This document shows, piece after piece, positions 23,059-40,814 of a DNA stretch of 60,183 nucleotides (position 1 is its first letter; each line of letters opens with the position of its first letter). A program made the translations under genes and the position numbers. Source of the stretch: Fibrobacter sp. (GTDB taxonomy: Bacteria; Fibrobacterota; Fibrobacteria; Fibrobacterales; Fibrobacteraceae); the NCBI RefSeq assembly GCF_017551775.1, contig NZ_JAFZKX010000040.1, forward strand, positions 1-60,183, written 5' to 3'. The notes beneath the pieces are model-generated. The model was not told where the DNA came from. It ran no database searches and saw only the letters and a program-made list of their open reading frames with translations.

Positions 23059-23089
23059 TCCGCAGCGGCATTGAACCATTCTTGATACG

Positions 23090-23122
23090 AAGAACCCCGA
23101 CGCATAAGCGCCGGGGGTTCTT
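23090..23122. terminator. Bidirectional terminator between convergent genes
   Basis: Arms AAGAACCCC (23090-23098) and the matching GGGGTTCTT (ending 23122) form a strong stem between the ECF operon and the convergent SpoIIE gene. Confidence 0.8.
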
Positions 23123-23144
23123 GCATACAGGCGATGCGTGAAGG

Positions 23145-25478
23145 CTAGATTTTCTTCATCACGGTAAGGATGCTCTTGCTGCCATCCCTGCGGAAGGCGA
23201 CATCGCGCATGCTCCTGTTCGAGAGGAACTTTCCGAGGGCTTCGAACATGCGTTCCTCGGCGGAAAGCGCCTCACCGGAATCTTCAGCAAAGGCGGAGGC
23301 ATTCTGGCTATCGGCAAAGCTGAGCCGCGCCATCACGTGCGTCTTGCAGGTTTCCACCGTGAACGTCACCTTGTCCGTTCCCGAATACTCGACCACGTTA
23401 TCGAACACCTCGACAACGGCATCGTCGAGCTGTTTCCGCACCTCGGCAGATACGCCCAGCGGCTCGAGGACTTCCCCGACGAAAGACGTCAAGGCATCGC
23501 GGTTTTCGGGAACGGCGTCCACGACCGTCTCGCGGGCATCCCACCTGTCGTCCCTGCCTCCGGTATACTGCACCGAGAGCGTGGCGGCATCGTCGAGCGG
23601 CTCGGCACCGTTCATGAATTCGTCGAAACGTTCCCTCATGAAATAGCATGCGCCGCCAGGAGCGCGGTTGCCGCTTTCCGAGAGGTCCACGAGCAGCCTC
23701 GTGCTGCCGAACCGTTCCCCGTCGGCATTCACCGCATTGACAAAGCCTTCGGTGAAGAAGAACAGCATGTCGCCCGGAGCCAAGTCGATCGACTGTGGCT
23801 CGTAGCGGGCTTCCTTGTCCATGGCAAGCGCCACGCCGAGTTCGCACTTCAGGCTTTCCACGGAGCCGTCCTTGTGGCGAATCGCCGGAAGATTGTGACC
23901 CGCCGAAGCGTAATCCACATGCCCGTTGCAGAGGTCCATGATGCCCATCCACACCGTCACGGGCATTTCGTCCTTGTTCCGGCGAGCAAGTTCGTAATTG
24001 GCCTTGTTGAAAATATCGGAGACCCTGGTAACATGCATGGTCATGGTGCGCAGCACGATTCGCGTCACCATCATCACGAGCGCCGCCTGGACACCCCTGC
24101 CCGATACGTCGCCCATCATGAACACCAGATGGTCGTCATCGACCTTGAAGAAGTCGTAGAACGCGCCGCCGACTTCCTTCGCGGGCTGCAGGTACGGGGC
24201 AAGCGAATGCCGCATGTCGCCGCAGTTCTCTTCGGATTCGTCCTTCGGGAGGATACCCATCTCGATTCCGCGCGCGAACTCGAGATCGCGTTCAATGCGG
24301 TCGAGGCTCTTCTGTTTTTCGACATACTTCTTGAGCGAGACACGCATGTCGCTGAAGGCAGTCGCGAGCTGCGAGATTTCATCGTGGCCGCTGATCATCG
24401 GGATAGCCGTATCGAAATCGCCCTTGCCGAGTTTTTCCGCCGCTACGGCAAGCGTCTTTAGCGGGCGCGAGACGCGCAGCGTTATCACGAGGATAAGCAC
24501 GAGCATCACGATGTAGCCGCCGAAACCAATCCAGGCGAACATGTAGTTCACGGAACGCTTCTCTTCGAGGAACGTCTCCGCGGGCCATACGATCATGAAC
24601 GTCCAGTCAATCGTCTCCATCGCCGTAAAGTAGATGACCGCCTCATCGCCGTCGAACGAAGAACCCAGGAAGAGCCCGCTCTTCATGCTGCTCACCGCTT
24701 TTTCGAACTCATCGAACCGCTTGCGCGACGCGCTCTTCGAAATGGAACCGAAATTGCCCTTGAACGTAAGTTCGTCCTTCGGGTGGGCAATAACCATGTT
24801 GCTCGCCGAAAGCACCACCGCATAGCCGTTGTTCGATACGGGAATGTTCGCGACCAAGTCCTTGAGGAACGCGATGGAAATATCCACGCACAGGACGCCC
24901 GCGAACTTCTTCTTCCCCGACGCATCCTTGCGGAAGATGGGCGTGGTATAAATGACGATGGGCTCCTTGATGAACTGCCCGACAAAAGGCTCCTGCCAGA
25001 TTCCCTTCATGCTGTCCCTGGTGCTCGTGTACCAGGTCGTCTCCAGGAAGTTTCCGCCATCGGTGATGGTGTTCCCGTTTTCGGTATAGTGCGCGAGCCT
25101 CATGTACTGGCCCTTGGGCGCACCCCTCGGGGCCATTCCCGGCTCGTAAGCGACAACCACCGCCAGCACCTGGGGCACGGTCGCACGAACGCCCGAAAGG
25201 GAACGCAGCAAGAAGTCGTCGAGTTGCTGGCCGACAAGCCCCTGCTCGCTCACCTTGGCAGCGATCTCTTCGCCGAAGTTGCGGCACGAACCGAACAGGT
25301 TGTTTATGACAGCCACGTTGGCACGGCTGATCTCTTCGCCCTTCTCCACGAGGAGACGGGAAAGCCTATCCTGAATCTGTGTACTGCTGAAACTGAACAG
25401 AGCAGCGAAAACAACGCTGATGCCCAAGAGAATCATTGCGGATTGTTTGAACGCCAAGCCGCGTACGTTTAACTTCAT
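23145..25478 (-). CDS. Cache-HAMP-SpoIIE phosphatase fused to RsbW-like ATPase domain
   Basis: A 777-residue inner-membrane signalling protein. TM1 (about 10-30) and TM2 (about 310-333) enclose a dCache-type sensor (GVLCVDISIAFLKDLV; VLSASNMVIAHPKD). HAMP follows (about 334-388), then a PP2C/SpoIIE domain (about 415-620: AKEVGGAFYDFF, GDVSGRGVQAALVM, ASAGHNLPAI, TEGFVNAVN, DDAATLSVQY), and a C-terminal HATPase domain (about 640-775: VRKQLDDAVVEVFDNVVEYSG). Such proteins act as RsbU/RsbW-type partner-switch regulators controlling an anti-anti-sigma factor. One metal-site motif reads TEG instead of TDG. No STAS antagonist gene is next to it. The ATG at 25478 has AGAGG at good spacing; a TTG two codons upstream is unlikely. 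Confidence 0.9.
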   Translation of the reverse strand: MKLNVRGLAFKQSAMILLGISVVFAALFSFSSTQIQDRLSRLLVEKGEEISRANVAVINNLFGSCRNFGEEIAAKVSEQGLVGQQLDDFLLRSLSGVRATVPQVLAVVVAYEPGMAPRGAPKGQYMRLAHYTENGNTITDGGNFLETTWYTSTRDSMKGIWQEPFVGQFIKEPIVIYTTPIFRKDASGKKKFAGVLCVDISIAFLKDLVANIPVSNNGYAVVLSASNMVIAHPKDELTFKGNFGSISKSASRKRFDEFEKAVSSMKSGLFLGSSFDGDEAVIYFTAMETIDWTFMIVWPAETFLEEKRSVNYMFAWIGFGGYIVMLVLILVITLRVSRPLKTLAVAAEKLGKGDFDTAIPMISGHDEISQLATAFSDMRVSLKKYVEKQKSLDRIERDLEFARGIEMGILPKDESEENCGDMRHSLAPYLQPAKEVGGAFYDFFKVDDDHLVFMMGDVSGRGVQAALVMMVTRIVLRTMTMHVTRVSDIFNKANYELARRNKDEMPVTVWMGIMDLCNGHVDYASAGHNLPAIRHKDGSVESLKCELGVALAMDKEARYEPQSIDLAPGDMLFFFTEGFVNAVNADGERFGSTRLLVDLSESGNRAPGGACYFMRERFDEFMNGAEPLDDAATLSVQYTGGRDDRWDARETVVDAVPENRDALTSFVGEVLEPLGVSAEVRKQLDDAVVEVFDNVVEYSGTDKVTFTVETCKTHVMARLSFADSQNASAFAEDSGEALSAEERMFEALGKFLSNRSMRDVAFRRDGSKSILTVMKKI

Positions 25479-25539
25479 AGCCAAGCCTCTAAAAAATAAC
25501 CGTTTTCCGTTTTTTTAAATCCCTAGCCACCACACACCA

Positions 25540-26103
25540 TCATCTCTTGAAAATCTTGTCGACCGTATCGGCGAACTCCTCGAAAGCGAACGTGCCTTCC
25601 AGTTCCGAGAGCGCCTTCACCAGCCCGCGGTAATGCCACTCGTGCTGCTTTTTGCTCTTGACATGGAACAGCTTCCACACCTCGTCACCGTGTTCCCTGA
25701 GGTCGCGGTAGATGGCGCGGGCATTGCTGAGTTTATCCGAAAGAGCGACGATTTTTGCATCGCGGGGCGCCGCCTTCAGCTGGTCGATGGCGATAGACTT
25801 GCGCAACTGCCAGCTTTCTTCTTCCGTCTTGCCGTTCACCACGATGTCGGATTCCGTTTCCACGAGCTGCGCGACCCGTTCGCCGAATTCACGCTTGACA
25901 TCGGAATACTTCACGCCGGTATCTTCCACCGTGTCGTGGAGGGCAGCGGCAGCCAGAAGTTCCTGGTCGTTTGTCATGGTAGCGGCAATAGAGACCGCCT
26001 CCATCGGGTGGACGATGTACGGGAAACCCTTTCCCTTGCGTTCCATACCCTGGTGGGCCTTTACCGCGAAGACGATCGCCTTGTCAAGAATAGAAGTATC
26101 CAT
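25540..26103 (-). CDS. HD-domain hydrolase, MESH1-like small alarmone hydrolase
   Basis: A 187-residue cytosolic HD-superfamily protein like the hydrolase half of RelA/SpoT and the single-domain MESH1/SAH enzymes that remove pyrophosphate from (p)ppGpp. Metal ligands are visible: AVKAHQGMERKGKGFPYIVHP (two His), LLAAAALHDTVEDTGV (HD and ED), and the later LSDKLSNARAIYRDL (Asp). No synthetase or TGS domain is present. The C-terminal 50 residues are extra. It lies downstream of the ZIP transporter on the same strand, 20 bases away; physiological substrate is inferred. Confidence 0.85.
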   Translation of the reverse strand: MDTSILDKAIVFAVKAHQGMERKGKGFPYIVHPMEAVSIAATMTNDQELLAAAALHDTVEDTGVKYSDVKREFGERVAQLVETESDIVVNGKTEEESWQLRKSIAIDQLKAAPRDAKIVALSDKLSNARAIYRDLREHGDEVWKLFHVKSKKQHEWHYRGLVKALSELEGTFAFEEFADTVDKIFKR

Positions 26104-26124
26104 AATATTAATCTATACTAAAAA

Positions 26125-26892
26125 CTAGCCAAGTGCAACATCCAGCGCCATCATCAGCGAAAAACCGACCGCAAAAAAGACCGTACCGATATTGGAATGG
26201 CGCCCTTCGGACATTTCCGGGATGAGTTCTTCCACAACAACGTAAATCATGGCACCCGCGGCGAAGCTGAGCAGGTAGGGCATGGCGGGCACGAAATGCT
26301 CCGCGAAGAAAATCATGAAAAGCGCCGCGACAGGTTCGACCGCGCCCGAAAGCGCACCGTATACAAACGATTTTTTCCGGGAAAGACCTTCGGCGCGCAG
26401 CGGCATAGAAATAATGGCGCCCTCGGGGAAGTTCTGGATGGCGATACCGATCGAGAGCGCAAGCGCCCCGAGCGCCGTAATATCGACATTCCCCGAAAGG
26501 AAACCCGCATAGACCACGCCGACCGCCATCCCCTCGGGAATATTGTGCAGCGTAACCGCGAAAACAAGCATGGCAGTCCCGGAAAGCCCGCTCTTCGGGC
26601 CCTCCTTCTCGTGATTCACGTGCATGTGCGGGACGACATTGTCAAGGAGCAAGAGGAAGAGGATTCCTATCCAGAAGCCCGCGACCGCGGGCACGAATGC
26701 GAACTTCCCGAGGGAAGCGGCACCATCCATAGCCGGGATCAGGAGGCTCCACACGCTGGCAGCGACCATGACGCCCGCCGCAAAGCCCGACATCGAGCGC
26801 TTGAGATTCTCCCCCATTTCGCGGCGGAGCAAGAAGACGCAAGCCGACCCGAGGACAGTCCCTAAGAATGGAATCAGAATGACCTTCAGCAT
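26125..26892 (-). CDS. ZIP family divalent metal transporter
   Basis: A 255-residue inner-membrane transporter with eight hydrophobic segments. The metal-site helices are clear: TM4 FAVTLHNIPEGMAVGVVYAG and TM5 IGIAIQNFPEGAIISMPL, both typical of ZupT/GufA-type ZIP carriers for zinc, iron or manganese. A His-containing loop (VPHMHVNHEKEG) lies between TM3 and TM4. The start is ATG at 26892. Confidence 0.93.
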   Translation of the reverse strand: MLKVILIPFLGTVLGSACVFLLRREMGENLKRSMSGFAAGVMVAASVWSLLIPAMDGAASLGKFAFVPAVAGFWIGILFLLLLDNVVPHMHVNHEKEGPKSGLSGTAMLVFAVTLHNIPEGMAVGVVYAGFLSGNVDITALGALALSIGIAIQNFPEGAIISMPLRAEGLSRKKSFVYGALSGAVEPVAALFMIFFAEHFVPAMPYLLSFAAGAMIYVVVEELIPEMSEGRHSNIGTVFFAVGFSLMMALDVALG

Positions 26893-27009
26893 ATGTTTAC
26901 CTTACAAAGAAATCTAATAATTTAATAACAAACAAGCGCCCCAAAGCCATATTTTATATCTTTAAAGCGTACGGAGAATTAACGACGTAGATTTCGTTTG
27001 GAGGCTATG

Positions 27010-27384
27010 ATGACCGCTATAATCGGTGCCGTTTTGTTGATGGTCGTTGTCGTAATGAGCATCGCCCTGATTCTAGGGGCCCCGCTGGGTGCCTTCACCC
27101 TGGGCGGCCGATTCAAGGTGTTCCCGCCCAAGCTGCGCCTGGTGCTCGCCACGCAGATGCTGATGCAGCTTTTCTTCGCCGCCATACTCCTGCAGCTCGG
27201 CGGGCATATGGCCCCGTGGTTTTCGCATCAGGTTACCAAGGTCATCGGAATTGTCCTGGCCGCCTACCTGACCCTGAACAGCTTCGCCAATCTCGCCTCG
27301 AAAAGCAAGCAAGAGAAGTACGTGATGACACCCCTTTCGGTGGTCACGGCCATCTGCTATTGGATCAACGCCCTCGCATTTTAA
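27010..27384 (+). CDS. Small four-helix membrane protein, unknown
   Basis: A 124-residue protein with four hydrophobic segments (about 1-28, 42-66, 73-97 and 105-124), the first rich in Met and Val. A GGAGG at 27000-27004 fits the ATG at 27010 better than the ATG at 27007. I do not recognise a family. It is still GC-rich and so belongs to the host-like side of the island boundary that follows. Confidence 0.7.
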   Translation: MTAIIGAVLLMVVVVMSIALILGAPLGAFTLGGRFKVFPPKLRLVLATQMLMQLFFAAILLQLGGHMAPWFSHQVTKVIGIVLAAYLTLNSFANLASKSKQEKYVMTPLSVVTAICYWINALAF

Positions 27385-27485: not shown

Positions 27486-28922
27486 CTAGTTCTTTATCCC
27501 TTTTCCCTCTTTCAGTGAATTTTGCAGGGTCTTTGAAGAACACCCAAGCGCATCTGCCGCATCTGCTTGTGTCTTATATTTTTTGCAGGCGTATTTTGCA
27601 AGAGCCTTATGGAAGAACTTGGTCGCTTCTTGCCATGATTTGTTTTCGAATTCAGGGAAAGCGGCAATATCGAATTCGCTCTTTTTAACGTCTTCAAATG
27701 AAATTTCTGCCAAAATTTCCTCTATTGATTTTTTGCCATTCCATGCAATAATTTGATAGGCTACGGACTGCAAATTGCGAAAATTACCCGGGAGTCGTGA
27801 TTTTCGAAAAAATCTTATAAGGCATTCGTCTTCAGGAGCCTCCTGGGGTGAACTCTCTAAACATGACGAATTCCACACTTTCCGCCAGTCATCAAGCAAG
27901 TCCTCTCGACATTCTCGCAGTGGAGGGAGTTCTACCTTATAAAAAGAAATTCTATCATAAAAATCTGGATCTAGCCTTTCTTGCAGTTCTTTTTCCGGCA
28001 AATTAGAAGCACATACAAGTTCGATATTGGCTGTATTCTCTTCATTACTGCCAAGAGGGCGATAACGATGCTTTTTGTCTTGCAGTGTACGCACCAATTT
28101 TCGCTGTACGGATTTTGGCAAATCTTGAATCTCATCCAGGAAAAGAATTTTTCCCTTCGCTTCTTCCAAAAGACCTTTTTTATCTTCAATAGCCCCCGTA
28201 AATGCGCCCTTCACATGACCAAATATTGCCGATTCTGCCAACGTTGAATCTAGGGAACCACAAGCTACCGCTACAACCTTTTTGTTCTTTATTTCTGCAA
28301 TATGAGATTCCACATGGCGGCTTTTACCAATACCACGTTCGCCAAGCAAAAGAAGCGGAACGTTTCGGACACTGGCATAAACCTTTATCTTCTCTATAGC
28401 ATCCCGTCGCACTTTTGACTTTGCCTCAGGCTCGTAGCTCGGTTCGTTCGGATTCTCCCTTTCGTATTTACGAAACTCGCTTAAGTAAGTGGTTATCGGA
28501 AAGTCAACATCATCACACGAAGTTTGATTTGAATTAGGAACTTTTTGAGAAGAAACTATTTGCGTTCCTTTAGGAAAATTTCCACCCGCATACAATATGA
28601 GCCAGACCGCATGCATCGCAGGAGTACCCGCGGATACATTGATGATCAAGTTTCTCTCATCCCTTATCAAAGGCAATATTTGATCTTTAATCAATCCATA
28701 AATCTCTTTATGTGCTGTTGGATTTTTTAGCGCAAGTTCAATAGGCTCAATGGCGGGAAAAAGACCTTTCATTTCGTCTTTTCTTTCTGCAAAGCCTTTT
28801 TGATAAAGATATAGGATCTTTTCAATTTCACACGAAGATTTAAACTTGTCCACAAACGTCTCCAAAGTACCAGGATCATGGCCGGGAGACATCCAAGTAA
28901 GTAAAGTCACCTTTTTTTTCAT
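27486..28922 (-). CDS. Sigma54 activator with CARF/RtcR-like sensor domain
   Basis: A 478-residue bacterial enhancer-binding protein. The N-terminal 160 residues look like a CARF/RtcR-type Rossmann sensor: KKKVTLLTWMSPGHDP, then NLIINVSAGTPAMHAVWLIL (compare the N.TGGT.pM motif of CARF proteins). The AAA+ domain has Walker A GERGIGKS (194-201), the sigma54-contact loop GAFTGA (239-244), Walker B ILFLDE (259-264), an arginine region around 315-324 and LPGNFRNLQ (377-385). A Fis-like helix-turn-helix (about 452-471, TQADAADALGCSSKTLQNSL) ends it. The ATG at 28922 starts right at the first beta strand; a longer frame to 29069 would run over the sigma54 promoter of the facing operon. It is divergent from the 29117-40814 operon and is very likely its activator. 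The ligand (cyclic oligonucleotide or cyclic-phosphate RNA) is inferred. Confidence 0.88.
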   Translation of the reverse strand: MKKKVTLLTWMSPGHDPGTLETFVDKFKSSCEIEKILYLYQKGFAERKDEMKGLFPAIEPIELALKNPTAHKEIYGLIKDQILPLIRDERNLIINVSAGTPAMHAVWLILYAGGNFPKGTQIVSSQKVPNSNQTSCDDVDFPITTYLSEFRKYERENPNEPSYEPEAKSKVRRDAIEKIKVYASVRNVPLLLLGERGIGKSRHVESHIAEIKNKKVVAVACGSLDSTLAESAIFGHVKGAFTGAIEDKKGLLEEAKGKILFLDEIQDLPKSVQRKLVRTLQDKKHRYRPLGSNEENTANIELVCASNLPEKELQERLDPDFYDRISFYKVELPPLRECREDLLDDWRKVWNSSCLESSPQEAPEDECLIRFFRKSRLPGNFRNLQSVAYQIIAWNGKKSIEEILAEISFEDVKKSEFDIAAFPEFENKSWQEATKFFHKALAKYACKKYKTQADAADALGCSSKTLQNSLKEGKGIKN

Positions 28923-29041: not shown

Positions 29042-29057
29042 TTGGCACGTTTTTTGC
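29042..29057 (+). promoter_or_regulatory. Sigma54 (-24/-12) promoter P1
   Basis: TTGGCACGTTTTTTGC matches the RpoN consensus TGGCACG-N4-TTGC. The GG (29044-29045) and GC (29056-29057) are the required 12 bases apart. Transcription would start near 29069, giving a leader of about 48 bases with AAAGGATGG before the ATG at 29117. It drives the seven-gene operon and lies between it and the sigma54 activator gene. Confidence 0.88.
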
Positions 29058-29116
29058 CATATTTTTCACGAAACCACAAAAAAATGTATATATCTATTAA
29101 CAAAGGATGGTAAGCC

Positions 29117-29827
29117 ATGAGTGTATTCAACAATGTCATCAACATTCAAGCCCGCCCGCTTCCTGTAATTATTCTTGCGGATGTAAGCGGTAGCATGAGT
29201 GAAATCGGCAAGCTCGATTCTTTGAAACTTGCTTTAAAAAATATGATTGCGTCATTCAAAAACGCTTCATCTTCATCTTTGGAAGCAGAAATCTATGTTT
29301 CGCTCATAACATTTGGCAATAATGCCACAAATATTGTTTTGGAGCCGCAGGCTGCAAGCGAAATTGCAAATGATGCATCCAAAATGAGCGCCATTGATGG
29401 GTTGGTGGCGGTTGGTAATACACCTCTTGGTGGAGCTTTAACAAGCCTCGTAGATATGCTGGAAAGGAGAGATATTTATCCATCTCGTGCATATCGTCCA
29501 TTTATTGTTCTTGCATCTGATGGCAAGCCTAATGATTCCTGGCAAGATCCATTAAGTAGACTTCTTAATAGTGAGCGGAGCAAAAAAGCGACCCGTCTTG
29601 CGCTTGCTATTGGGGCGGATGCGGACGAAAACATGTTAAAAAAATTCGTGAATAATGATGAAATTCCTGTATTTAAAGCGAACAACGCCGCTGAAATACA
29701 AAAATTCTTCAAATGCGTCACGATGTCCGCCATTAAGAGTTCGCAATCGGCCAAGCCTGGCGAAATTAGCGCGAATGACATCATTGGCCTTTCTGAAAGT
29801 GTTAAGGATCTCTTTGATGAGGATTAA
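29117..29827 (+). CDS. VWA-domain protein, TerY-like
   Basis: A 236-residue cytosolic von Willebrand factor A protein of the TerY type. The MIDAS metal site is complete: DVSGSM (22-27), Thr102 in GNTPLGGAL and Asp135 in LASDGKPND. The C-terminal 40 residues (SSQSAKPGEISANDIIGLSESVKDLF) are a typical TerY tail. In TerY-P triads such a protein travels with a PP2C phosphatase and a zinc-ribbon kinase, as here. It is the first gene after the sigma54 promoter; the next gene starts three bases after its stop. Confidence 0.92.
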   Translation: MSVFNNVINIQARPLPVIILADVSGSMSEIGKLDSLKLALKNMIASFKNASSSSLEAEIYVSLITFGNNATNIVLEPQAASEIANDASKMSAIDGLVAVGNTPLGGALTSLVDMLERRDIYPSRAYRPFIVLASDGKPNDSWQDPLSRLLNSERSKKATRLALAIGADADENMLKKFVNNDEIPVFKANNAAEIQKFFKCVTMSAIKSSQSAKPGEISANDIIGLSESVKDLFDED

Positions 29828-29830
29828 CAT

Positions 29831-30556
29831 TTGCTTTTAGAATATGTCACTAGTAGAAAATGGAAAACAGTCCAAGCTTCGGTACGGGGGCCTGGACATA
29901 TCAAGGACAATCTTCCAAATCAAGATTGTACATATATTGGTTATGTTGACAAATTTCTATTAGTGATGGTTTGTGATGGATTAGGGTCCCATGCTCATAG
30001 TGATTATGGGGCGCAAACTTTGTGCAAATTATTCGCACCGTGTTTTAAGGAATGGAGTAAATACAAATCACATATTCCGACAGATTTTTTGCGACTATTA
30101 CATTGCCAATGGTTAATGCATGTACGTAATTTTGGGGCAGATGAATGTGGTTGTACCTGCCAGTTTGCTATTGTTAATAGTAAGGGCAAAGGTTGGTTAG
30201 CCCAACTAGGAGATGGAATGACTCTTGTGCGACACAATGGGAAGATTGAGGCGTTTTCTGAAATCAAGGATGGTTTTGGTAACGAAACTTCCGCTATGGG
30301 GGACTATGATACCATTCCGTTTTGGCGTTTAAATAAGATAGAGTTAAGTTCTCCAAGCGATAGAATTCTTATGATGACAGATGGAATCAGCGAAGATATT
30401 TTATCTGATGCTATGGATGAATTTGTTTCTGTCTTTGATAATTTTTTTAAGGTTCCAATTAATCGAGCCCAAAAGAATCTAAAAGATGAACTGACACATT
30501 GGCCGACACAACACCATATTGATGACAAAACCATCGTTGCTATTGAAAGAAGGTGA
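29831..30556 (+). CDS. PP2C-type protein phosphatase of the TerY-P triad
   Basis: A 241-residue PPM/PP2C phosphatase. The metal-binding signature residues are present: NQDC (Asp32), VMVCDGLGSHAHSDYGA (Asp49), LAQLGDGM (127-129), MMTDGISED (TDG 183-185) and DDKTIVAIE (231-237). It probably reverses phosphorylation by the kinase encoded next. No ATG exists before the conserved core, so the TTG at 29831 is the start; GATGAGG at 29816-29822 supports it. The use of TTG inside a tightly packed operon could tune its level. Confidence 0.9.
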   Translation: MLLEYVTSRKWKTVQASVRGPGHIKDNLPNQDCTYIGYVDKFLLVMVCDGLGSHAHSDYGAQTLCKLFAPCFKEWSKYKSHIPTDFLRLLHCQWLMHVRNFGADECGCTCQFAIVNSKGKGWLAQLGDGMTLVRHNGKIEAFSEIKDGFGNETSAMGDYDTIPFWRLNKIELSSPSDRILMMTDGISEDILSDAMDEFVSVFDNFFKVPINRAQKNLKDELTHWPTQHHIDDKTIVAIERR

Positions 30557-30562: not shown

Positions 30563-32017
30563 ATGTTTACAGAAGAACTTGTAAAAGAAAATCGCATCAT
30601 AGTAGTTGAAACTGAAAGCGCTGGCAAATTTGATTTAAAAGAATGTATTGGAGAAGGCGGACAGGGGGCTGTATATAAAACACAGCATCCAAATCTGCTT
30701 GTTAAATTAAGTTACGCATCAAAGGACAATTTCAATCCTAATATTGTTTATAGACGTTATAGGAATCTTCGTTCTAGAATAGACTTACCTAATAATTTGG
30801 CAAAGCCTTTAAATGAAATCAAGCCTATTATAAAGGGAGGAAAGGTTTTCTATGGTTACGTCATGGAACTGATGGAAGATATGGTTCCATTAAGCAGTCT
30901 TCATTGCAAAAAAGGCGAAGAATTTGCTTTATACATAGAACGACTCGGCGGAATTCGACGTATCTATACACTTTTGCGTAAACTAGCTGAAATACTTAAT
31001 CAAATACATGCAGTCGGTTACTGTTATGGGGACTTGAACCCAAATAATATCTTTATTTCTAGCGATACTGAATTTAGCGAAGTACAACTTATCGACTGTG
31101 ATAATATGACCATTGCTGCAGACTTCAAGGATTCAATATCGTTTAAGGGATTCTCTGCACCCGAAATTGTAAGAGAACATAAGTTCAATACACCTTTAAG
31201 TGACACATGGAGTTTTGCCGTAGTTGCGTTCTTTGCCCTTCGGCAGGAATTGCCATTTCATGGAAGACTTGTAACTGATGCGGCTACTATGGATATTTCA
31301 ACCATAGAGAAAAAAGAAGAGGAAGCGGATCTTCCGTTTATCGATGATCAAGATGAAGATAACGTAGGAGAATCGGCCGTCTTTCGCGAAGTCATGGAAA
31401 CGAAGAATTTGCAAGACCTGTTTAAAAGAACGTTTTCCGGTGAAAAGAATTTTTTGACAAGACCGGCTTTGTTTGAATGGATTGAGGCTCTTCAGATAGG
31501 CGAAAATTCATTCATGAAATGCAAAAATTGTGGAAAGCATTACATTAAGATGGGCAAGAAGTGCGAATGTCCTTTTTGCGATACAGAATCACATGTACCA
31601 TACATCCTTTTGCTCAATATGATTTATACAGGGGGACAACTTATAGAAACAAGTTCTAGCCATCCCACATATTTGCTAGAAGATTCATCTGCCCTGTTGA
31701 TTATTCCCATGGCAGAAACCAAATCGGCTAATATCAAAGTCTCGTTCAATGCTTCCAAGCAACAGTTAAGCCTTCTGCTGACAAATCAGGATGAACTTAA
31801 GGCGACCTTATTGATTGATAAAGAAAAGACAACTAAGAATTGTGCTCTAAAAAAAGATGTTCCTCTCCTTGTTAAAGTCAAAGAGGATTGCCGATGCTAC
31901 ATCTTTTTCCCAGAATACACTCTCACAGAAATTATAAACAACGAAGATGAATCCGAAGAAAGTTCTTCTTTAAAATTTAGGGGCGCAATCAAATTCAAGT
32001 ATTGGGGTGAAGCATGA
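30563..32017 (+). CDS. Hanks-type kinase with C-terminal zinc ribbon (TerY-P kinase)
   Basis: A 484-residue protein kinase. The glycine loop GEGGQG is at 30-35, the ATP-anchoring Lys48 in LLVKL, the catalytic loop YGDLNPNN at 155-162, the Mg-binding Asp178 in LIDCDN (DFG equivalent) and SAPE at 198-201. An acidic insert (about 250-270) follows. A zinc ribbon (C320-x2-C323 .. C336-x2-C339) then leads to a C-terminal beta-rich domain (about 345-480). Kinase plus ribbon is the TerY-P form. Catalysis of Ser/Thr phosphorylation and its target are inferred; the target may be another operon product. It overlaps the helicase start by ATGA. Confidence 0.9.
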   Translation: MFTEELVKENRIIVVETESAGKFDLKECIGEGGQGAVYKTQHPNLLVKLSYASKDNFNPNIVYRRYRNLRSRIDLPNNLAKPLNEIKPIIKGGKVFYGYVMELMEDMVPLSSLHCKKGEEFALYIERLGGIRRIYTLLRKLAEILNQIHAVGYCYGDLNPNNIFISSDTEFSEVQLIDCDNMTIAADFKDSISFKGFSAPEIVREHKFNTPLSDTWSFAVVAFFALRQELPFHGRLVTDAATMDISTIEKKEEEADLPFIDDQDEDNVGESAVFREVMETKNLQDLFKRTFSGEKNFLTRPALFEWIEALQIGENSFMKCKNCGKHYIKMGKKCECPFCDTESHVPYILLLNMIYTGGQLIETSSSHPTYLLEDSSALLIIPMAETKSANIKVSFNASKQQLSLLLTNQDELKATLLIDKEKTTKNCALKKDVPLLVKVKEDCRCYIFFPEYTLTEIINNEDESEESSSLKFRGAIKFKYWGEA

Positions 32018-35000
32018 ATAATGAGCAACTAAACATCATTGCGTGCAATTCCTCGGCTCAACTTGTAGATGTGATTGTTGATGATGATGGTAAAGTCGGT
32101 ATCAATAGATTCGATGTTTGGGAACTTACTCCAAGTGGTTTTTTCAAGAATAGTAACCATCCTGAAAAAAAATACTTGCCTAAAAATTCATCTATAGATA
32201 ATCAAGAATCTCTTTATATTGTCGATTCCATCAAACAGACGAATGGTTCCTATGAAATAGGCCTGAATCAATGGGATTTTGGCGGTCCCACTATTAAAGG
32301 GAATATAGGCCAAGTGTGCGACATTGTTGTTCCGACCCCTCTTCTCATAGCAGTCACTAAGAAAAAAAACTTTAAAGATGCTGAACAGGCTTTTGATTGG
32401 TTTAAGAACGAATTTCTTTTTCATACAACTGAAAATTTGTACTTATTCTTTAAAATATTGAGTAATGAGCCTGGTTTAGAAGGAGGATGGCTAGGACGAA
32501 AGAATATTGCAAATATTGAAAGCAAGAAGATTAATGGTAAGGACTATCTCTTTGTCAGTAGTTTAAAAAGGTCTCCGCAAAAGAAACTGAATATACAAAA
32601 GGGTATAGCGCACGTTCGGTTTGTATCGGAACAGGATGCTGTCGAAAGCGATCCTATTTTGAACGCTCAATTGGCAAAGCAGGCTGCAGATCCAAACTCC
32701 ATCATCAACCTTTGGGAAAAATACAATCAGGTTGATGCAAATATGTTGGAGGATTATAAAAATCAATCAGGGATTCTCCGGATTGAAAAGATTTCGGCAA
32801 AAGGCGAAAATTGCAGCGCTACACTTCAGAATAAAACTGAGGAAATAGAAAATTTTAAGAACATATACAATCAGTTAAACAGCAATCAGAAAAATGCCTA
32901 TTCCATTTATGTTTTCGCGGGAAAAAATAAACACCCAATATGTAATGAACACATTGATGAACAAAAACGAACCATCTCTTGGAAATGGAACGAACGAAAG
33001 CCACAATACAATAATAATGAAAAATTGGAACTAGAAGGTTTCGCCATTAATTTTATGCCATGGGCAATTGCCTCTAAACGCAGGACAGATGCTCTTGAAA
33101 AAGTTCGTACGCGAAACATCCCAATTCCCACTATTACAGACATCTTAAACAAAACAACGATGCCGTCATTCAGTTCGGCGACTACAAAAAAAGCGCCTAC
33201 TGAATTGCAAATAGAAGCTGCGTTTGGTGATAGTAAGCCCAACGACGCTCAAATAAAGGCTCTTAAAGTTTGCCTTAATACTCCTGATATAGCTCTTATT
33301 CAAGGACCTCCTGGAACGGGAAAGACTCGCGTCATTAATGCATTACAAAAATACTTGCAATCAACAGACCCGAGGCATCCCGAAAAAATGCCGAGCATAT
33401 TGCTGACAAGTTTTCAGCATGTGGCCGTTGACAATGTGGCTGATGGAAGTTCAATTTGGGGACTCCCTGTATTTCGTTTCTATGGGGAACAAAAGGACAA
33501 GGAGCAAATTTTTAGGGGGCTACAGCAATGGCAAGAAGAAACTGCGAAAAAGATAGATGAGCAAATAAACAAAGTGCAGATTAACTCCCGATACAAGGAA
33601 TATGATAAGCTGCAAGTGAGTCTCAATGCGATAAGGGCAGCAAGATCCTCGTACGAGATTCGTAATTTAATACAAGAGATTATTGGCCTTTCGGCCACAA
33701 ATAACTTTCTTTCGCCATCAGAAGTTTCGACTCTTAAAGATTTTAAAAAAAGATTCCAAAGCAAGCAGATGGATTATCGATTCTATCAATGCCTAATGGG
33801 GTTAAGAACGACTCCCGTGGGATTTAATGATGATGGAAAGAGAATGATTGAGCGATTGTTGGAATACTACGACTTGCGTAAGGATTCTTTAAATTGCGAT
33901 GCAGTGGAGAATGGGTACGAAAGATTACAGAAACTGATGGAATCTACACCTAGCAAAGAAGATTTTGATTGGATTGAATGGCTTAAAGATGAAGGCATTG
34001 CTCAAATGGTGCATAATCCGACAAATTCTTTTGACCATCGGCTATTCACAATGCTTCAAGACTATATTGAGACGACCATAATTCCCAATATCAAGGAGCG
34101 TATTAGGCAAACTGATATTCAAAAGTACATTATTTTGAACGGATATAAGGAAAATGTCGGCTTCAAGTCTATTAGGAATGCAATGCTCCGTTACGCTATG
34201 ACTTATGCGGCGACTGTTCAGCAATCCAAAAGCGAGTCTTTTGTCCGGCTCCTCGGGGAAAAAAACTTTGAATTCGACTATGTCATCATTGATGAAGCGG
34301 CTCGTGCAAATCCGCTTGATCTATTCATTCCGATTACTTTAGCACGAAAAAAAGTTATACTGGTAGGCGATCATAAACAACTTCCTCAATTAGTTGATCA
34401 AGATATTTTGGAGCAGATGGAGTCTAACAACGATTCTGAGGAGCGATTTGAAGAACTAAAAGGCTTTATGGAAAAGTCGCTGTTTGAATCCCTTTGGAAT
34501 TACTTAAAAATGGAACGAAACGATGGCGTTGTACGCACAGTAACGCTTGATACTCAATACCGCATGCCGAAAAAATTGAGCGATTTTGTGAGCAAAAATT
34601 TTTATGGTGAAGAAACTCATATTCAAACTGGCAAAAATCCCAACGACTGCATTCATCACGTTTCTAGGTATATAAAGAAAAACGGTGAGTGTAAGTGCGC
34701 AGTCTGGGAAAACGTTGATGGTAAAGAATCCGGGAAAATAAGCAAAACGAACGAAGCCGAGGCGGAACTGATTATCAAACGTATAAGGGAAATTGTAAAA
34801 GAAACCGATGAATCAATTGGTGTTATTGCCTCGTATAGCGCCCAAACAAGGCTCATTGATAAAATGGCGAAATCAGATGCCGAACTGAAAAAAAGGATTG
34901 ATTCCAAACAGTTGGAAATTGGGTCAATTGATGCTTTTCAGGGACGACAATTTGACATTGTATTTTTCTCTGTCGTTCGCAGCAATGACAAAAACATCTT

Positions 35001-35160
35001 TGGCTTCTTGAAATCGGAAAATCGACTAAATGTTGCTTTTTCGCGACAAAAGAAACTCCTCGTAGTTGTAGGGAATCGAAATATGTATGAAACTGAAAAA
35101 GCTCAAGAAGATGTCCCTGCCTTGAAGGAATTCATCAAGCTTGCTGACGAGGAGAAATAG
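32014..35160 (+). CDS. UPF1-like superfamily 1 helicase with novel N-terminal region
   Basis: A 1048-residue protein. The first 400 residues show no family I recognise. The C-terminal part is an SF1 helicase of the UPF1/DNA2 (AAA_11/AAA_12) type: Walker A GPPGTGKT at 431-438, DEAA Walker B at about 759-762 (VIIDEAARANPLDLFIPIT), GDHKQLPQL, motif IV-like TLDTQYRMP, then GSIDAFQGRQFDIVFFSVVRSN and LNVAFSRQKKLLVVVGN (motifs V/VI). A long coiled or helical insertion lies between the Walker motifs. Substrate (RNA or DNA) is unknown. It starts within the kinase stop and is followed at one base by the next gene. AT-rich like its neighbours. Confidence 0.93.
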   Translation: MNNEQLNIIACNSSAQLVDVIVDDDGKVGINRFDVWELTPSGFFKNSNHPEKKYLPKNSSIDNQESLYIVDSIKQTNGSYEIGLNQWDFGGPTIKGNIGQVCDIVVPTPLLIAVTKKKNFKDAEQAFDWFKNEFLFHTTENLYLFFKILSNEPGLEGGWLGRKNIANIESKKINGKDYLFVSSLKRSPQKKLNIQKGIAHVRFVSEQDAVESDPILNAQLAKQAADPNSIINLWEKYNQVDANMLEDYKNQSGILRIEKISAKGENCSATLQNKTEEIENFKNIYNQLNSNQKNAYSIYVFAGKNKHPICNEHIDEQKRTISWKWNERKPQYNNNEKLELEGFAINFMPWAIASKRRTDALEKVRTRNIPIPTITDILNKTTMPSFSSATTKKAPTELQIEAAFGDSKPNDAQIKALKVCLNTPDIALIQGPPGTGKTRVINALQKYLQSTDPRHPEKMPSILLTSFQHVAVDNVADGSSIWGLPVFRFYGEQKDKEQIFRGLQQWQEETAKKIDEQINKVQINSRYKEYDKLQVSLNAIRAARSSYEIRNLIQEIIGLSATNNFLSPSEVSTLKDFKKRFQSKQMDYRFYQCLMGLRTTPVGFNDDGKRMIERLLEYYDLRKDSLNCDAVENGYERLQKLMESTPSKEDFDWIEWLKDEGIAQMVHNPTNSFDHRLFTMLQDYIETTIIPNIKERIRQTDIQKYIILNGYKENVGFKSIRNAMLRYAMTYAATVQQSKSESFVRLLGEKNFEFDYVIIDEAARANPLDLFIPITLARKKVILVGDHKQLPQLVDQDILEQMESNNDSEERFEELKGFMEKSLFESLWNYLKMERNDGVVRTVTLDTQYRMPKKLSDFVSKNFYGEETHIQTGKNPNDCIHHVSRYIKKNGECKCAVWENVDGKESGKISKTNEAEAELIIKRIREIVKETDESIGVIASYSAQTRLIDKMAKSDAELKKRIDSKQLEIGSIDAFQGRQFDIVFFSVVRSNDKNIFGFLKSENRLNVAFSRQKKLLVVVGNRNMYETEKAQEDVPALKEFIKLADEEK

Positions 35161-35161
35161 C

Positions 35162-36610
35162 ATGGAAATTGCAAATCTGTTTTGCAACTCTTGTGAGTGT
35201 CCCAAGGGGGACTACTTCGCCTTGCCTGTCGTTATATGGGATATCTTGGTTGCTGAAGCGGAGATTCCCGAGAATTTCTTCTCTAACTTAATTTTAGATT
35301 TTCTCCAAACTGGTGACAAGACTATCCATGAGCTCCATGAACTAACCAATCTTGATGAATCTCTTGTTCGCTATATTCTTGAACATGATCTCAGAGGACA
35401 AGTCACAAAAGGAATTGATAAATGGCATGTGCCAGAAGGAAATACCAAGACCAAAACAAAAATCAAGAAAACTCGAATTGTTGTGTTGCAATCTATGTTG
35501 ACAGGGCAGTTGATTCCTCATCCCCTAAAGAATGGTGGACTCGCATCTATTGATTATCTGCAAATTGAAAAGGGAATTTCTATTGTCGGAGGAACCAAGG
35601 GAAGACCTTGTAATATCAAGCCCTTTATTGTATATCCTCGACCAGATGAACATGGAGAGTTCGCTCCCGATATTTCGCAAGAAGACATTTACGGTATGTG
35701 GAAGGAATATCAGCAAATTGACTGCGATATAGCCATGTCTGACTACGATGATGTTAAATCAGGTTACATCGAACAGCCGGATAAAATTATTTCTATCGAG
35801 AGACGTGATACAGATTCCGGTATATGTAATTATCTACTAGTCAAGGTCAATAAGATATCTGAAGGTGAAGCTTTCCAATGTATTGATATGTTGGAAGACA
35901 ATTCTAAAATTCCAATGGAATTTCTTGCAAATGAACTTAATGTGGCTCTTGAACAAAATGAAAAAATGGGGGCGTTTTTAGGACTCAAATCAATAGAGAT
36001 CCCTATTGCACTTCAAGATCGTATCCAGAGCAGATATCCGTATTTTAATGATGATATTATTATTGAAATCTGCAGATTTTTTGTATTAAAAGATATTCTA
36101 GCAGACGATACGGATAACTCACTTGATTTAAGCGATGCGTTTCTTACCCGAATGCAAAATATGTACGAAAGTATTCTCAGGACAAAAAATACCCTTTATG
36201 ATAAGGAACTCATAAAAATTTCCCGTAAGGATGAACAAGAGCGCCGTTACTATTTAGAGGCTGGTCTAAGAATGCGTAATTTAGAACTAGACGAGGTCAC
36301 AAAGAAAGCTTTGACAAATGAAGATGTATGGCGAAATATGACCCGAAAAAAGCCATCCTTAAAGTCGTTACTAATTAGGCATTTACTCTTTTATCTTGAC
36401 CATCCTAAAAATCCGCTTGCCTGGTTTGCGGCACTGCTAGATCAAAACGGATTGTTGAAGGATGACCTTAGACTTATTATTGAATTGGTGAACACACGAA
36501 ACATCTATGATCATTTTAACACGGATAGAAACCCTATTCCGTATCCATACATTAACATCTATAATAAAATTGAGAAACAATTGGATATTTTACACGAGGC
36601 CTACAAATGA
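35162..36610 (+). CDS. Unknown protein with HEPN-like C-terminal motif
   Basis: A 482-residue protein of no family I recognise. The N-terminus has a Cys pair and a winged-helix-like stretch (FLQTGDKTIHELHELTNLDESLVRYIL). A mixed middle follows. The last 120 residues look all-helical and contain RLIIELVNTRNIYDHFN, in which R446-N-x3-H451 fits the RNase motif (Rx4-6H, polar after R) of HEPN domains. If real, this would be the likely effector nuclease of the operon. The ATG at 35162 follows a GAGGAG; a longer TTG frame starts inside the helicase gene. It overlaps the next gene by ATGA. Confidence 0.6.
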   Translation: MEIANLFCNSCECPKGDYFALPVVIWDILVAEAEIPENFFSNLILDFLQTGDKTIHELHELTNLDESLVRYILEHDLRGQVTKGIDKWHVPEGNTKTKTKIKKTRIVVLQSMLTGQLIPHPLKNGGLASIDYLQIEKGISIVGGTKGRPCNIKPFIVYPRPDEHGEFAPDISQEDIYGMWKEYQQIDCDIAMSDYDDVKSGYIEQPDKIISIERRDTDSGICNYLLVKVNKISEGEAFQCIDMLEDNSKIPMEFLANELNVALEQNEKMGAFLGLKSIEIPIALQDRIQSRYPYFNDDIIIEICRFFVLKDILADDTDNSLDLSDAFLTRMQNMYESILRTKNTLYDKELIKISRKDEQERRYYLEAGLRMRNLELDEVTKKALTNEDVWRNMTRKKPSLKSLLIRHLLFYLDHPKNPLAWFAALLDQNGLLKDDLRLIIELVNTRNIYDHFNTDRNPIPYPYINIYNKIEKQLDILHEAYK

Positions 36611-39048
36611 GCAAAAAGAACAAGAATAAGAACAAAAATCAGCCTTCCGCTCCACAACGTCATGCACCTATAAGTATGGCCGATGTGAAAAACCTATTCT
36701 CTCCACTAAAGGACACCATTGAAAGCGCTCCTGCAATTTCAAGTAATGATGGTTCCGCAACGGTCACTACGCCTCCCAAGGAGTCTCTACTAGACAAAAT
36801 TAAAAGTCTAGTACCTTCCGAAAAGAAGCTGTCTGACGATGAAAAAAACATCCTTGATACATTGCAAAGAGATCTTAAGGTAGCCATTGATTTATACAAC
36901 ATGGCGAAAAAAGATTGCGACGGCGTCAAAGCTGATTACAACGCCAAAATTGCAAATTTAGGAAAAACAGCTAAAGATCAAGAAGATAAAGCGCGTAAGC
37001 TAGAGGAAAAGAAAGGTAATCTTGACAAACGAGAAACTGGACTCAATGAACGTTTGGACAAACTAGATGATAGAGAATCCAAACTCAATACGCTCAAAAA
37101 TGAGGTCGATCAAAAAGAGGCTGAGAATAAAAAAGAAAGTGAGCGCTTAAATAAATTAGACGCAGAAATTAAGCAAAGAGAAGCCGAAGCCAATGCCGGA
37201 TTTATCGCAAATGAGACTAGATGGAAAAATGAAATTACAGAAAAACTCAACAAAGATCTTCAATCGACAAGAGAATCTTTGCAAAAACAAATTAATGAAT
37301 ATCAGGAAGAAAAGGCCTCTTTATATTTTAATCAACAGAAATGTATCCTTGAAAAAACAGAATACGAGAATAAGAAAAAGGCCTTTGACGATGTGAAAGC
37401 AGAAATTCGAGACGATTACAAGCGAGAATTAGAACAGAGGAAAAGTGATTATAATGCTCAAATTACAGAATTGACTAAGGAGAAAGAGAGTCTGCTATGT
37501 CAATTAAAGAGCTATAAGGACATTAAGTCGCAACTTGATGGAATGAGTGCCGAAGAAGCCAAGGAGTTAATCAATTCGCTTCGCATAGAAAATGAGAAAC
37601 TCAAATTGGAGCGTAATACGCTATGGAGTCCAGAACATCAGCAGCAAATGCAAGATGATTTGGAAACGTTCAAAGATAAATATGAAGCAGCTATCGCTGA
37701 AAAGAATGCTCTCTTTAATCAGATGATGGATTATCGAAGAAAAATTGTTGACAATGATGGCCTGATTGCATATAAAAATACTTTAGAGACTCACAATAAG
37801 GCCCTTAAAGCTGCTCAAGATCAACTGCGTGAAGAGCTCAATGAACTCACCAAAAAAGATAAGAATAAGGATATTTTTGCAGAATTCAAAAATATTGATA
37901 GCAGATGCAATCATAAATATATCAGTTTTACCCAAAAATCCGGTGACCTTAAGGATTTTGTAAATGCAGTTGGATACCAACTGACGCAATATCAACCAAA
38001 TCTTTTCTACACTCGCGAAACGTTGCAGCTGTTCGTGGGTGGACTTGCCATGAGTCGCTTAATACTGTTGCAGGGTATTAGCGGAACGGGAAAGACCAAA
38101 CTTGCTCAGGCGTTCGCCTCTATTGTTGGCGACAATTCCGATGGTCGTCAATCGGAAAAAGATTCCTGTAGTTACATTATCCCAGTTCAAGCGGGATGGC
38201 GCGATAACCAAGATTTGCTGGGCTACTACAATGCTTTTGAAAAGAAGTTTTATGAGAAACCTTTCTCCAAAGGCCTGTACACTGCATCTACACCCCAGTT
38301 TAGAAATCGTCTATTTTTCTTAATTCTAGATGAAATGAACCTGTCGCACCCAGAACAGTACTTTGCTGATTTCATTTCTGCAATGGAACAAGCAAATAGT
38401 TCCATATTTGACAACCTTAAAGTTGAACTTCTTTCTGGGATGCCCAAAGAAATTATGGAGTCAGACCGTTGGCCCATGCACCTCGAAAATGAAAAAATTA
38501 TCGTTCCTCCCAACGTATGGTTTATCGGAACAGCAAACCATGACGAAACAACAATGGAATTTGCCGACAAAACATACGACCGTGCTCATGTCATGGTGAT
38601 GGAACGAAATACTCAAAAAACTTCCTATGATAAAGTAGGAAAAGGTTCTGCCCACTGGTCCGCCGAGGATTTGAGAAACGCCTTTGTAGAAGCGCAAGAA
38701 TCAAGCGAGGGAGAAAAACAATCGGATTGGGTCACTGAAAAATTACATTCCCTCAAGGATATTCTTAAATCCGAATTTGATGTTTCTTTTGGCAATCGTC
38801 TCGAAAGACAGATTAGGGATTTCGTTCCGGTAGTCTGTGCCGCAGGAGGAACAGAGGAACTCGCCCTAGACCATCTCCTGGCAACAAAGATTGTCCGAAA
38901 GGGAAAAATTACGGGACTATTTGGTGTACAAGAAGATTCGCTCGTAAAACTCAAGGATGAAATCCAGAAAAATATAAAGCTAGGTGATGATTCCGCGACA
39001 ATCAAACTTCTTGACCAAGACATCGCTGCAAAAAGACGAGGTGCATAA
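36607..39048 (+). CDS. McrB-like AAA+ ATPase with long coiled coil
   Basis: An 813-residue protein. After a Lys/Asn-rich start, residues about 60-430 form a very long coiled coil rich in Lys, Glu and Asp. The C-terminal AAA+ domain (about 455-780) has Walker A GISGTGKT (490-497), Walker B LILDEMNLSH (DE 575-576) and a sensor IGTANHDETT (640-649), close to McrB/MoxR-type NTPases. It is the usual partner of a DUF2357/McrC-like protein, and the next gene is one. The coiled coil replaces the DNA-binding N-domain of classical McrB, so it may act as a ruler or filament-forming arm. It overlaps both neighbours by a few bases. Confidence 0.85.
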   Translation: MSKKNKNKNKNQPSAPQRHAPISMADVKNLFSPLKDTIESAPAISSNDGSATVTTPPKESLLDKIKSLVPSEKKLSDDEKNILDTLQRDLKVAIDLYNMAKKDCDGVKADYNAKIANLGKTAKDQEDKARKLEEKKGNLDKRETGLNERLDKLDDRESKLNTLKNEVDQKEAENKKESERLNKLDAEIKQREAEANAGFIANETRWKNEITEKLNKDLQSTRESLQKQINEYQEEKASLYFNQQKCILEKTEYENKKKAFDDVKAEIRDDYKRELEQRKSDYNAQITELTKEKESLLCQLKSYKDIKSQLDGMSAEEAKELINSLRIENEKLKLERNTLWSPEHQQQMQDDLETFKDKYEAAIAEKNALFNQMMDYRRKIVDNDGLIAYKNTLETHNKALKAAQDQLREELNELTKKDKNKDIFAEFKNIDSRCNHKYISFTQKSGDLKDFVNAVGYQLTQYQPNLFYTRETLQLFVGGLAMSRLILLQGISGTGKTKLAQAFASIVGDNSDGRQSEKDSCSYIIPVQAGWRDNQDLLGYYNAFEKKFYEKPFSKGLYTASTPQFRNRLFFLILDEMNLSHPEQYFADFISAMEQANSSIFDNLKVELLSGMPKEIMESDRWPMHLENEKIIVPPNVWFIGTANHDETTMEFADKTYDRAHVMVMERNTQKTSYDKVGKGSAHWSAEDLRNAFVEAQESSEGEKQSDWVTEKLHSLKDILKSEFDVSFGNRLERQIRDFVPVVCAAGGTEELALDHLLATKIVRKGKITGLFGVQEDSLVKLKDEIQKNIKLGDDSATIKLLDQDIAAKRRGA

Positions 39049-40814
39049 TGTTCGACATCTTCTTGCAAAAAGATGTTGAAAAAGATTTCCCTGATTGCGG
39101 AGGTCTCTATGCACAAAGCAAAGAGGACGCACAAAAAGGGAATATTATCTACCACTTTGATGAAATCGAAATCAAGGACTCCACACCCATATCTCGCGAT
39201 ATTTTAAGCGCATTTCGGTTACTCGCCAATGACAAGGAGGAATCTTTCTTTTCGCTATGTGATGATCCCGAAAACCTTGACCGCAATCCGCTAGAGCGAT
39301 TCCTCCAAAAAGATATTGAACAAATCCGGCGAAATGACCCTCTCACCCATCTAAAAGAAGTTGTCGCCAGGCCGATTCTCGACTTGAAAGAAGAAGAAAT
39401 CAAGCAGCCAACAAGCCGAGTCAAAAAATTCGCCCCCCGCGCTTTGGAATATCTAGCAGGGCATTCCGAAGATTGGCGAAATCGTTCTTTTGTGGGCGTT
39501 CATCCACAGCGTATTCTCTCCTTGGTAAGAGACGACAAATGGGAAACTTACGAAAACCGTTTGATGTACACGCTTTGCAAAATATTGATTTCCTTAATCA
39601 ATCAAAGGCTGCAAGAGCTAAAGAATATAGACAACGCCTATTACGAAATTGAACTGTATTATCAGGAAACAAACAACATAGATTTCAATTCTATGGGCAA
39701 AGAACTAAATTTCCTGTTAAATCGATATAGTCAAGAAACAGTAAAAGAAAATAGGGACCTACTGAAACAAACTATAGATTTTCTAAAGTACCTGCAACGT
39801 TCCATATCTGCCTTTTGGAATTCGCCGCTATTCAACAATTTGAAAACCATACCCAATATTGAAGTTGACATCAACCACGACATTATGACAAATGTCTTGA
39901 TGAACAACCAGCATTATTCATATTTGCCCAAAATACAGAAAGAGGTAAAGAGAGCGCGAATCGCAAAACTTTCCAAAACAGAAAAAAAAGACGAACAAGT
40001 TTCGTTGCGGAACTACGAAAAAGTATTCGTCAAGCGATGCATTAACGACTTCAAGAAAGAAAACAGAGAATGCTGGACATACTTGGAACTCAAATCAAAA
40101 GAAACGCCATATAGCTTTGAATTTGAGGCACGCGAGAAAAAACTGCGTTTCGTTTTTGTCACCTCAAAGCCAACAAGCATCTACGAATCTTGCATTCCTA
40201 CAAAAAAAACGAGCGAGGTATCGGTCCTTGTATATCCACAAAGTGACCCCTATCTTAACGATAACGGAAGCAACTACTTTACCATCCAGCAGATGTTCAA
40301 AGACTGCAAGCCCTATATGATATTGGGGATTTCCCCGCAATCCATATTTTCAAAATTACTTATTCAAAGAATAATTCTTCAATGGGCGTGGCCCATCCTT
40401 ATGCACCAATATCCATTTGAGATAACTCAAAACAGATTCATTAAGGATTTAGTGCCCACCCTTTTGAACAAGAAATTCCTGCTTGAAAGTTACGATATAA
40501 AGAAATTCAAGAATCAAGTTGACGAACAAGAAAGAACCAACAGAGTTCAAAAAAGAGATTTATATACCTATCGCAAGAATTGCGACGAAGACATAAAGAT
40601 TCTTGAAGCGGGGAATACTCTCGTAAATCTAGTCTTGACATGTCCCTGTTGTAAGAGTACAGGAAAATTGCATGACGGGGCGACCAATGACAACTTTTTG
40701 GTTTCCTGCAATAATTGCCATAGCCGTTGGAGCAGAAACGGAAACAAAATCAAATGGTCATTCAAAGACACAAAACTTCATGGGAAATGGGAATCTTTTG
40801 AATTAAAAATTTAA
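39048..40814 (+). CDS. DUF2357-like (McrC-like) partner protein with zinc ribbon
   Basis: A 588-residue protein, the last of the main operon. The N-terminal half resembles DUF2357-type partners of McrB-like ATPases (FAPRALEYLAGHSEDWRNRSF .. DDKWETYENRLMYTLCKIL). Residues about 350-500 form a mixed alpha/beta region where a nuclease fold could lie; I could not pick out a clear PD-(D/E)xK triad. A zinc ribbon CPCC .. CNNC ends it (about 532-565). The start overlaps the ATPase stop in TAATG. McrB/McrC-like pairs cut or remodel modified or foreign DNA; a similar activity here is inferred. Confidence 0.65.
   Translation: MFDIFLQKDVEKDFPDCGGLYAQSKEDAQKGNIIYHFDEIEIKDSTPISRDILSAFRLLANDKEESFFSLCDDPENLDRNPLERFLQKDIEQIRRNDPLTHLKEVVARPILDLKEEEIKQPTSRVKKFAPRALEYLAGHSEDWRNRSFVGVHPQRILSLVRDDKWETYENRLMYTLCKILISLINQRLQELKNIDNAYYEIELYYQETNNIDFNSMGKELNFLLNRYSQETVKENRDLLKQTIDFLKYLQRSISAFWNSPLFNNLKTIPNIEVDINHDIMTNVLMNNQHYSYLPKIQKEVKRARIAKLSKTEKKDEQVSLRNYEKVFVKRCINDFKKENRECWTYLELKSKETPYSFEFEAREKKLRFVFVTSKPTSIYESCIPTKKTSEVSVLVYPQSDPYLNDNGSNYFTIQQMFKDCKPYMILGISPQSIFSKLLIQRIILQWAWPILMHQYPFEITQNRFIKDLVPTLLNKKFLLESYDIKKFKNQVDEQERTNRVQKRDLYTYRKNCDEDIKILEAGNTLVNLVLTCPCCKSTGKLHDGATNDNFLVSCNNCHSRWSRNGNKIKWSFKDTKLHGKWESFELKI

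Follow-up and report, generated by a model that had tools for sequence, protein, structure and literature searches.

Contig NZ_JAFZKX010000040.1 of Fibrobacter sp. (NCBI RefSeq assembly GCF_017551775.1), analysed here over its full 60,183 nucleotides (the window), carries a seven-gene operon, assigned from its gene content to CoCoNuT Type II, which is divergent from a gene for a CARF-AAA+-HTH enhancer-binding protein. A σ54-type −24/−12 promoter (P1, TGGCACGTTTTTTGC) lies between the two. P1 very probably serves the CoCoNuT operon, with the CARF activator, seated on tandem palindromes, switching on this operon and, through a second σ54 promoter (P2), a unit encoding a HicA-like protein. A preceding sequence-only reading had placed a near-perfect σ54 site before an operon of TerY-type triad genes; the site was recovered at the same position with the same sequence, and the triad genes are present, but they form only the 5′ part of the longer CoCoNuT operon.

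P1 agrees with the consensus TGGCACG-N4-TTGC at all 11 specified positions (T43, G44, G45, C46, A47, C48, G49, TTTT, T54, T55, G56, and C57, by the last two digits of the coordinate), with GG and GC 10 bases apart (GG-N10-GC), and is the sole 11/11 σ54 site of the window. It stands in a gap of 194 bases (30% GC, with many T runs), a length that had been proposed earlier and that holds with the activator starting at ATG 28922. The predicted transcription start precedes the ATG of terY by 48 nt, and AAAGGA stands 9 nt in front of this ATG. In dinucleotide shuffles of the gap, scanned on the + strand, an 11/11 site arose in 0 of 20,000 and a 10/11 site in 3 of 20,000; when the entire window was shuffled, the mean was 0.025 sites at 11/11. 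Across the genome TGGCACNNNNNTTGC occurs 17 times, vs. 5 times for a reversed control pattern. The host, a Fibrobacteraceae metagenome-assembled genome that is 98% complete, has a single, intact rpoN, encoding 573 amino acids (aa) with the RpoN box RRTVAKYR; a host without rpoN, which would have spoken against σ54 control, is therefore not the case here.

The divergent activator is of the RtcR_PspF1 type: the PADLOC profile of that name (PDLC01994) matches it with E = 7.9e-156 (518 bits), compared with E = 3.8e-44 (149 bits) for the RtcR profile itself. Its AAA+ σ54 interaction domain (Pfam Sigma54_activat, 1.9e-36) contains GAFTGA, as the sequence-only reading had noted. A structure model of residues 1–166 (pLDDT 73) gave top fold matches that are almost all CARF proteins, including Can2, Cdn1, VC1899, Csm6, and Card1 (Z up to 12); these matches and the PADLOC profile identify an N-terminal CARF domain. 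The longest open reading frame (ORF) would start at GTG 29069; this start was rejected because the family has its conserved start at 28922 and because the promoter would fall inside the longer frame. The protein is not classed as RtcR proper, the regulator of rtcBA, as neither RtcA nor RtcB was found in the 98%-complete host genome.

Comparison with relatives carries the argument from the site to its regulator. Orthologous activators number 12, the window's included, in 11 of 111 family genomes, and are 38–68% identical among those aligned. Every one of the 12 has a σ54 site of 10–11/11 either beside the activator or before an operon that ends in the activator. At the syntenic locus L037 the operon retains both promoters (the P2 counterpart at 2212–2226 on the − strand) and both enhancers, and at L040 and L041 a single tandem enhancer lies between two divergent σ54 promoters, a layout also seen at L092. 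A search of genome contigs returned two true relatives of the activator, whose loci are those of G072 and G086, and a distant one from Flavobacteriaceae; no relative was found in viral contigs. The site in all 12 loci and the tandem enhancer shared by nearly all of them strongly support the earlier suggestion that the sensor domain controls the operon, and P1 as the candidate σ54 promoter through which the adjacent sensor-activator would do so.

The enhancers, which the sequence-only reading had overlooked along with P2 at 40936, are palindromes of consensus ATACGAAAAATTTTTCGTAT in two copies 20–22 bp apart, found upstream of nearly all the activator-linked σ54 sites. They are conserved and are candidate sites for the HTH domain of the activator. 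At P1 the two boxes are centred 105.5 and 84.5 bp upstream of the GG. When the best tandem was scored with leave-out matrices, 0 of 300 shuffles reached the P1 or the P2 enhancer, and of the activator-linked sites tested all but two (L044 and L046) were unbeaten by 300 shuffles. The unlinked control site L040c had a tandem score at background; the L040 site at 4786–4800, away from the activator operon and without an enhancer, was taken as background. A scan of the window with the tandem matrix found two places of at least 18 bits, one upstream of each σ54 promoter, and a composite enhancer-plus-promoter pattern has exactly two matches in the genome, both at this locus (control, 0).

Several observations weigh against this interpretation. 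σ54 sites with two mismatches occur in the window at chance level (61 seen, 58.65 expected); because such loose matches are not above chance, the weight of P1 comes only from the exactness of the match and its position. The P1 enhancer is weaker than those of the closest relatives (26 bits vs. 37–45) and about two helical turns farther upstream. A single-box score does not separate it from shuffles (13 of 20, reached by 128 of 200), so that it is distinguished only by the matrix-based tandem test, and both the matrix and the composite pattern were built from loci of the same set. The enhancers of L044 and L046 are weak, being reached by 2 and 1 of 300 shuffles, respectively. The strong comparative cases all come from one bacterial family. 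Outside it, the Vibrio plasmid relatives L086 and L088 have TGGCACGAAGATTGA and TGGCATGATGCTTGA with GGTGT-type repeats upstream, but their −12 element is TTGA rather than TTGC, and because of this GA the Vibrio sites are suggestive only.

There is little chance that P1 arose fortuitously in an AT-rich gap and that a housekeeping promoter drives the operon. The low GC content, the T runs and the count of loose matches would suit that explanation, but the shuffles do not, and P1 is conserved at the syntenic L037 as well as next to every orthologous activator, and no σ70-like promoter was found in the 194-bp gap. It is similarly improbable that P1 is σ54-dependent but served by another enhancer-binding protein, with the CARF protein acting elsewhere: at least five more σ54-activator matches exist in the host genome and relatives have stronger enhancers than that of P1, yet the enhancer and promoter are paired in this genome only at this locus, and the enhancer was recovered beside orthologous activators whatever operon they face. 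Least probable of all, TGGCA-N7-TGCCA followed by T's could be an intrinsic terminator or a protein-binding palindrome, and a terminator scan does place a 5-bp stem followed by a T tail on precisely 29043–29059, but this was rejected since every other locus retains just 2–4 of the 5 stem pairs, GG-N10-GC is conserved throughout, and no upstream + strand gene requires a terminator there.

With P1 read as the σ54 promoter of the CoCoNuT operon, the following mechanism is proposed. σ54-RNA polymerase would wait at P1 in a closed complex, and the divergent activator would bind the tandem palindromes through its HTH domain; in enhancer-binding proteins such tandem sites seat dimers, which form a ring on activation. 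A ligand on the CARF domain would trigger assembly of the AAA+ ring, whose GAFTGA loop would remodel the polymerase and turn on the seven genes; through the second enhancer and P2, the same activator would also turn on the hicA-like gene with a conserved 37-aa ORF. Because both units sit behind σ54 promoters with paired sites matching the CARF activator, defence is probably kept off until the sensor is triggered. The P1 enhancer ends 6 bp before the start codon of the activator, and this placement directly before its own gene suggests autorepression, so that binding to the enhancer probably also limits expression of the activator; an enhancer lies within a few dozen bp of the activator start in L037, L039, L042, and L043 as well.

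RtcR needs RtcAB, and because the host genome has no match to RtcA, RtcB, or Cas10, the activating ligand must come from elsewhere. Candidates are RNA ends produced by phage or by a toxin, and cyclic oligonucleotides from a source not seen here. Cyclic phosphate ends can result from HEPN cleavage, and the operon, which encodes a HEPN-type effector, could therefore amplify its own signal. Such self-amplification has been suggested for CoCoNuTs (Bell et al., 2024; PMC11090510). RtcR has as ligands tRNA 5′ halves ending in cyclic phosphate, and it oligomerises (PMC7790460); RtcR that lacks its CARF domain is constitutive (PMC9650030).

Coordinates of the locus, in positions of the window.
Feature	Position	Strand	Remarks
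CARF-AAA+(GAFTGA)-HTH enhancer-binding protein, RtcR_PspF1 type	27486..28922	−	divergent from operon
Predicted tandem palindromic enhancer (upstream activating sequence) for P1	28929..28969	+	two 20-bp boxes 21 bp apart; 26.0 bits
Predicted σ54 −24/−12 promoter P1	29043..29057	+	11/11 consensus; predicted start 29069
TerY-like VWA protein	29117..29827	+	Pfam VWA 5e-13
PP2C phosphatase	29831..30556	+	Pfam PP2C_2 7e-33
Ser/Thr kinase, C-terminal zinc ribbon	30563..32017	+	Pfam Pkinase 1e-13; CxxC pairs at residues 320, 336
CnuH, UPF1-like superfamily 1 (SF1) helicase	32014..35160	+	Pfam AAA_11/AAA_12; gene order as annotated CoCoNuTs L090, L091
CnuE, HEPN-type effector	35141..36610	+	RxxxxH (RNIYDH) at residue 453, conserved in L037
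CnuB, coiled-coil McrB-like GTPase	36607..39048	+	NxD motif (NHDE); coiled coil judged from sequence
CnuC, McrC-like protein with zinc ribbon	39048..40814	+	CxxC pairs at 532, 554; position of DUF2357 gene in L090, L091
Predicted tandem enhancer for P2	40846..40886	+	33.5 bits; centres 81.5 and 60.5 bp before GG
Predicted σ54 promoter P2	40936..40950	+	10/11; predicted start 40962
HicA-like protein, 92 aa	40991..41269	+	PADLOC HicA-like 1.2e-13; Pfam HicA_toxin 0.0014, below cut-off
Conserved Gly-rich ORF, 37 aa	41284..41397	+	near-identical behind hicA-like in L040, L041

The order TerY-P, CnuH, CnuE, CnuB, CnuC is that of CoCoNuT Type II (PMC11090510; annotated examples L090 and L091). CnuE had no Pfam hit; a second RxxxxH string, at residue 77, falls in its N-terminal part, outside the expected HEPN region, so that the sequence predicts a single HEPN RxxxxH motif, as in Type II. 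This motif and the NxD motif, as defined in PMC11090510, together place the operon in Type II.

The unit behind P2 resembles HicA toxins in a weak profile match and in a GKHVI stretch similar to the HicA active-site region, but differs from them in a Pfam score below the cut-off and in its neighbour: no HicB antitoxin was seen beside the gene, the 37-aa ORF (MSKHNGQPPINPHGAGWPSTTGGKSGGGRGGNPPKGR) standing there instead. The fold model of the HicA-like protein was too poor for a fold search. P2 itself reads TGGCATGCATTTTGC. Homologues of the HicA-like protein are encoded behind the partner σ54 promoter in L038 (broken by a stop), L040, L041, and L092, and in diverged form in L037. The unit is thus common to Type II loci (the window and L037), Type III-A-like loci (L038 and L092) and loci with a helicase, a winged helix-turn-helix (wHTH) and a PLD gene (L040 and L041), and because it is shared across these three operon types it goes with the control module and not with one effector.

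The sequence-only reading had remarked that σ54 dependence is not commonly described for triad operons, but the link is not wholly new, as RtcR-like CARF proteins next to TerY-P-containing CoCoNuTs have been reported and RtcR-type activation through an upstream activating sequence proposed (Bell et al., 2024; PMC11090510). The present locus has the same genes in the same order and the same RtcR-like CARF association; in those CoCoNuTs, however, the RtcR gene is at the 5′ end and nearly always in the same direction, whereas the present gene is divergent, and its counterpart in relatives can come last in the operon. The main text of that paper gives no −24/−12 sites, enhancer sequence or HicA-like partner unit, noting BrnT-like toxins upstream instead. 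The RtcR/rtcBA RNA repair operon of E. coli and Salmonella likewise has a divergent CARF-AAA+-HTH activator, a σ54 promoter, and an upstream activating sequence (PMC7790460, PMC9650030), but here the target is a CoCoNuT with a HicA-like unit, in a host without RtcA and RtcB, and the best profile is RtcR_PspF1. TerY-P triads, as far as their description is cited in PMC11090510 (Anantharaman et al., 2012), share the grouping of VWA, PP2C and kinase-zinc ribbon genes, which here stand within a longer operon with a dedicated σ54 activator.

The RtcR-CoCoNuT link was therefore already proposed in print in 2024, and the additions made here are the DNA-level control elements, the overlooked partner unit and the reuse of one control module across different effector operons. 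Literature searches found no published description of σ54 sites, of enhancers, or of a HicA-like unit at these loci, and none of the papers in the collection searched joins CARF, σ54, and phage defence. Work on defence systems mostly treats them as constantly on; at this locus, evidence at the sequence level indicates that a CARF-gated σ54 switch can keep CoCoNuT/TerY-P operons in check, and with exact sites in hand the published proposal that RtcR homologues induce CoCoNuTs is now directly testable.

Among relatives, this control module is found in front of Type III-A CoCoNuTs as well as of a helicase/wHTH/PLD operon. The activators of the window and L036 share 67% identity; the L036 operon is a Type III-A-like CoCoNuT, and its CnuH is about 32% identical to that of the window. 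As is usual for Type III-A, both RxxxxH and RxH occur in L036 and L038. With the L037 activator the identity is 63%, and there the operon directly corresponds to that of the window, at 70–81%. The relatedness of the regulators thus does not follow that of the effectors. Plasmids of Vibrio and Pontibrevibacter also carry the helicase-wHTH-PLD-activator cassette, and a Klebsiella plasmid has its last two genes. The Pontibrevibacter activator homologue (L089:17989–19410) has lost GAFTGA, with the rest of the cassette kept, and no clear σ54 site was found before its operon, a single control-like case that fits the model. A more speculative extension, considered rather unlikely, is that activator, tandem enhancer, the two σ54 promoters and the HicA-like/37-aa unit together make up a portable cassette for control, swapped between different defence operons (Type II, Type III-A CoCoNuT, helicase-wHTH-PLD), and that RNA ends made by HicA-like or HEPN proteins would act back on its CARF sensor, so that the alarm amplifies itself.

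The four-gene cassette of SF1 helicase, wHTH-like protein, PLD nuclease, and CARF-σ54 activator was found at L041:1993–8648, L040:10426–17156, L086:512–7340, L088:546–7371, and L089:12847–19410; PADLOC recognised just its MkoA-like and DrmC-like parts. At L046:3787–8039 an activator-linked σ54 promoter is followed by kinase, VWA, and PP2C-HTH genes, with no CoCoNuT core genes in the stretch read. Short ORFs with similar motifs around LEKRLxxRxxAL closely follow activator-linked σ54 promoters at L044:11111–11449, L039:3839–4120, and L042, where the ORF has 94 aa and starts 85 bases after the promoter at 3792–3806. In the window, the flanks (20447–27384 and 41455–50205) hold mostly ordinary chromosomal genes, among them those for a ZIP transporter, an HD domain protein, a SpoIIE phosphatase, DXP synthase, and glucose-6-phosphate isomerase, and on this ground the putative defence cassette spans about 27.5–41.4 kb.
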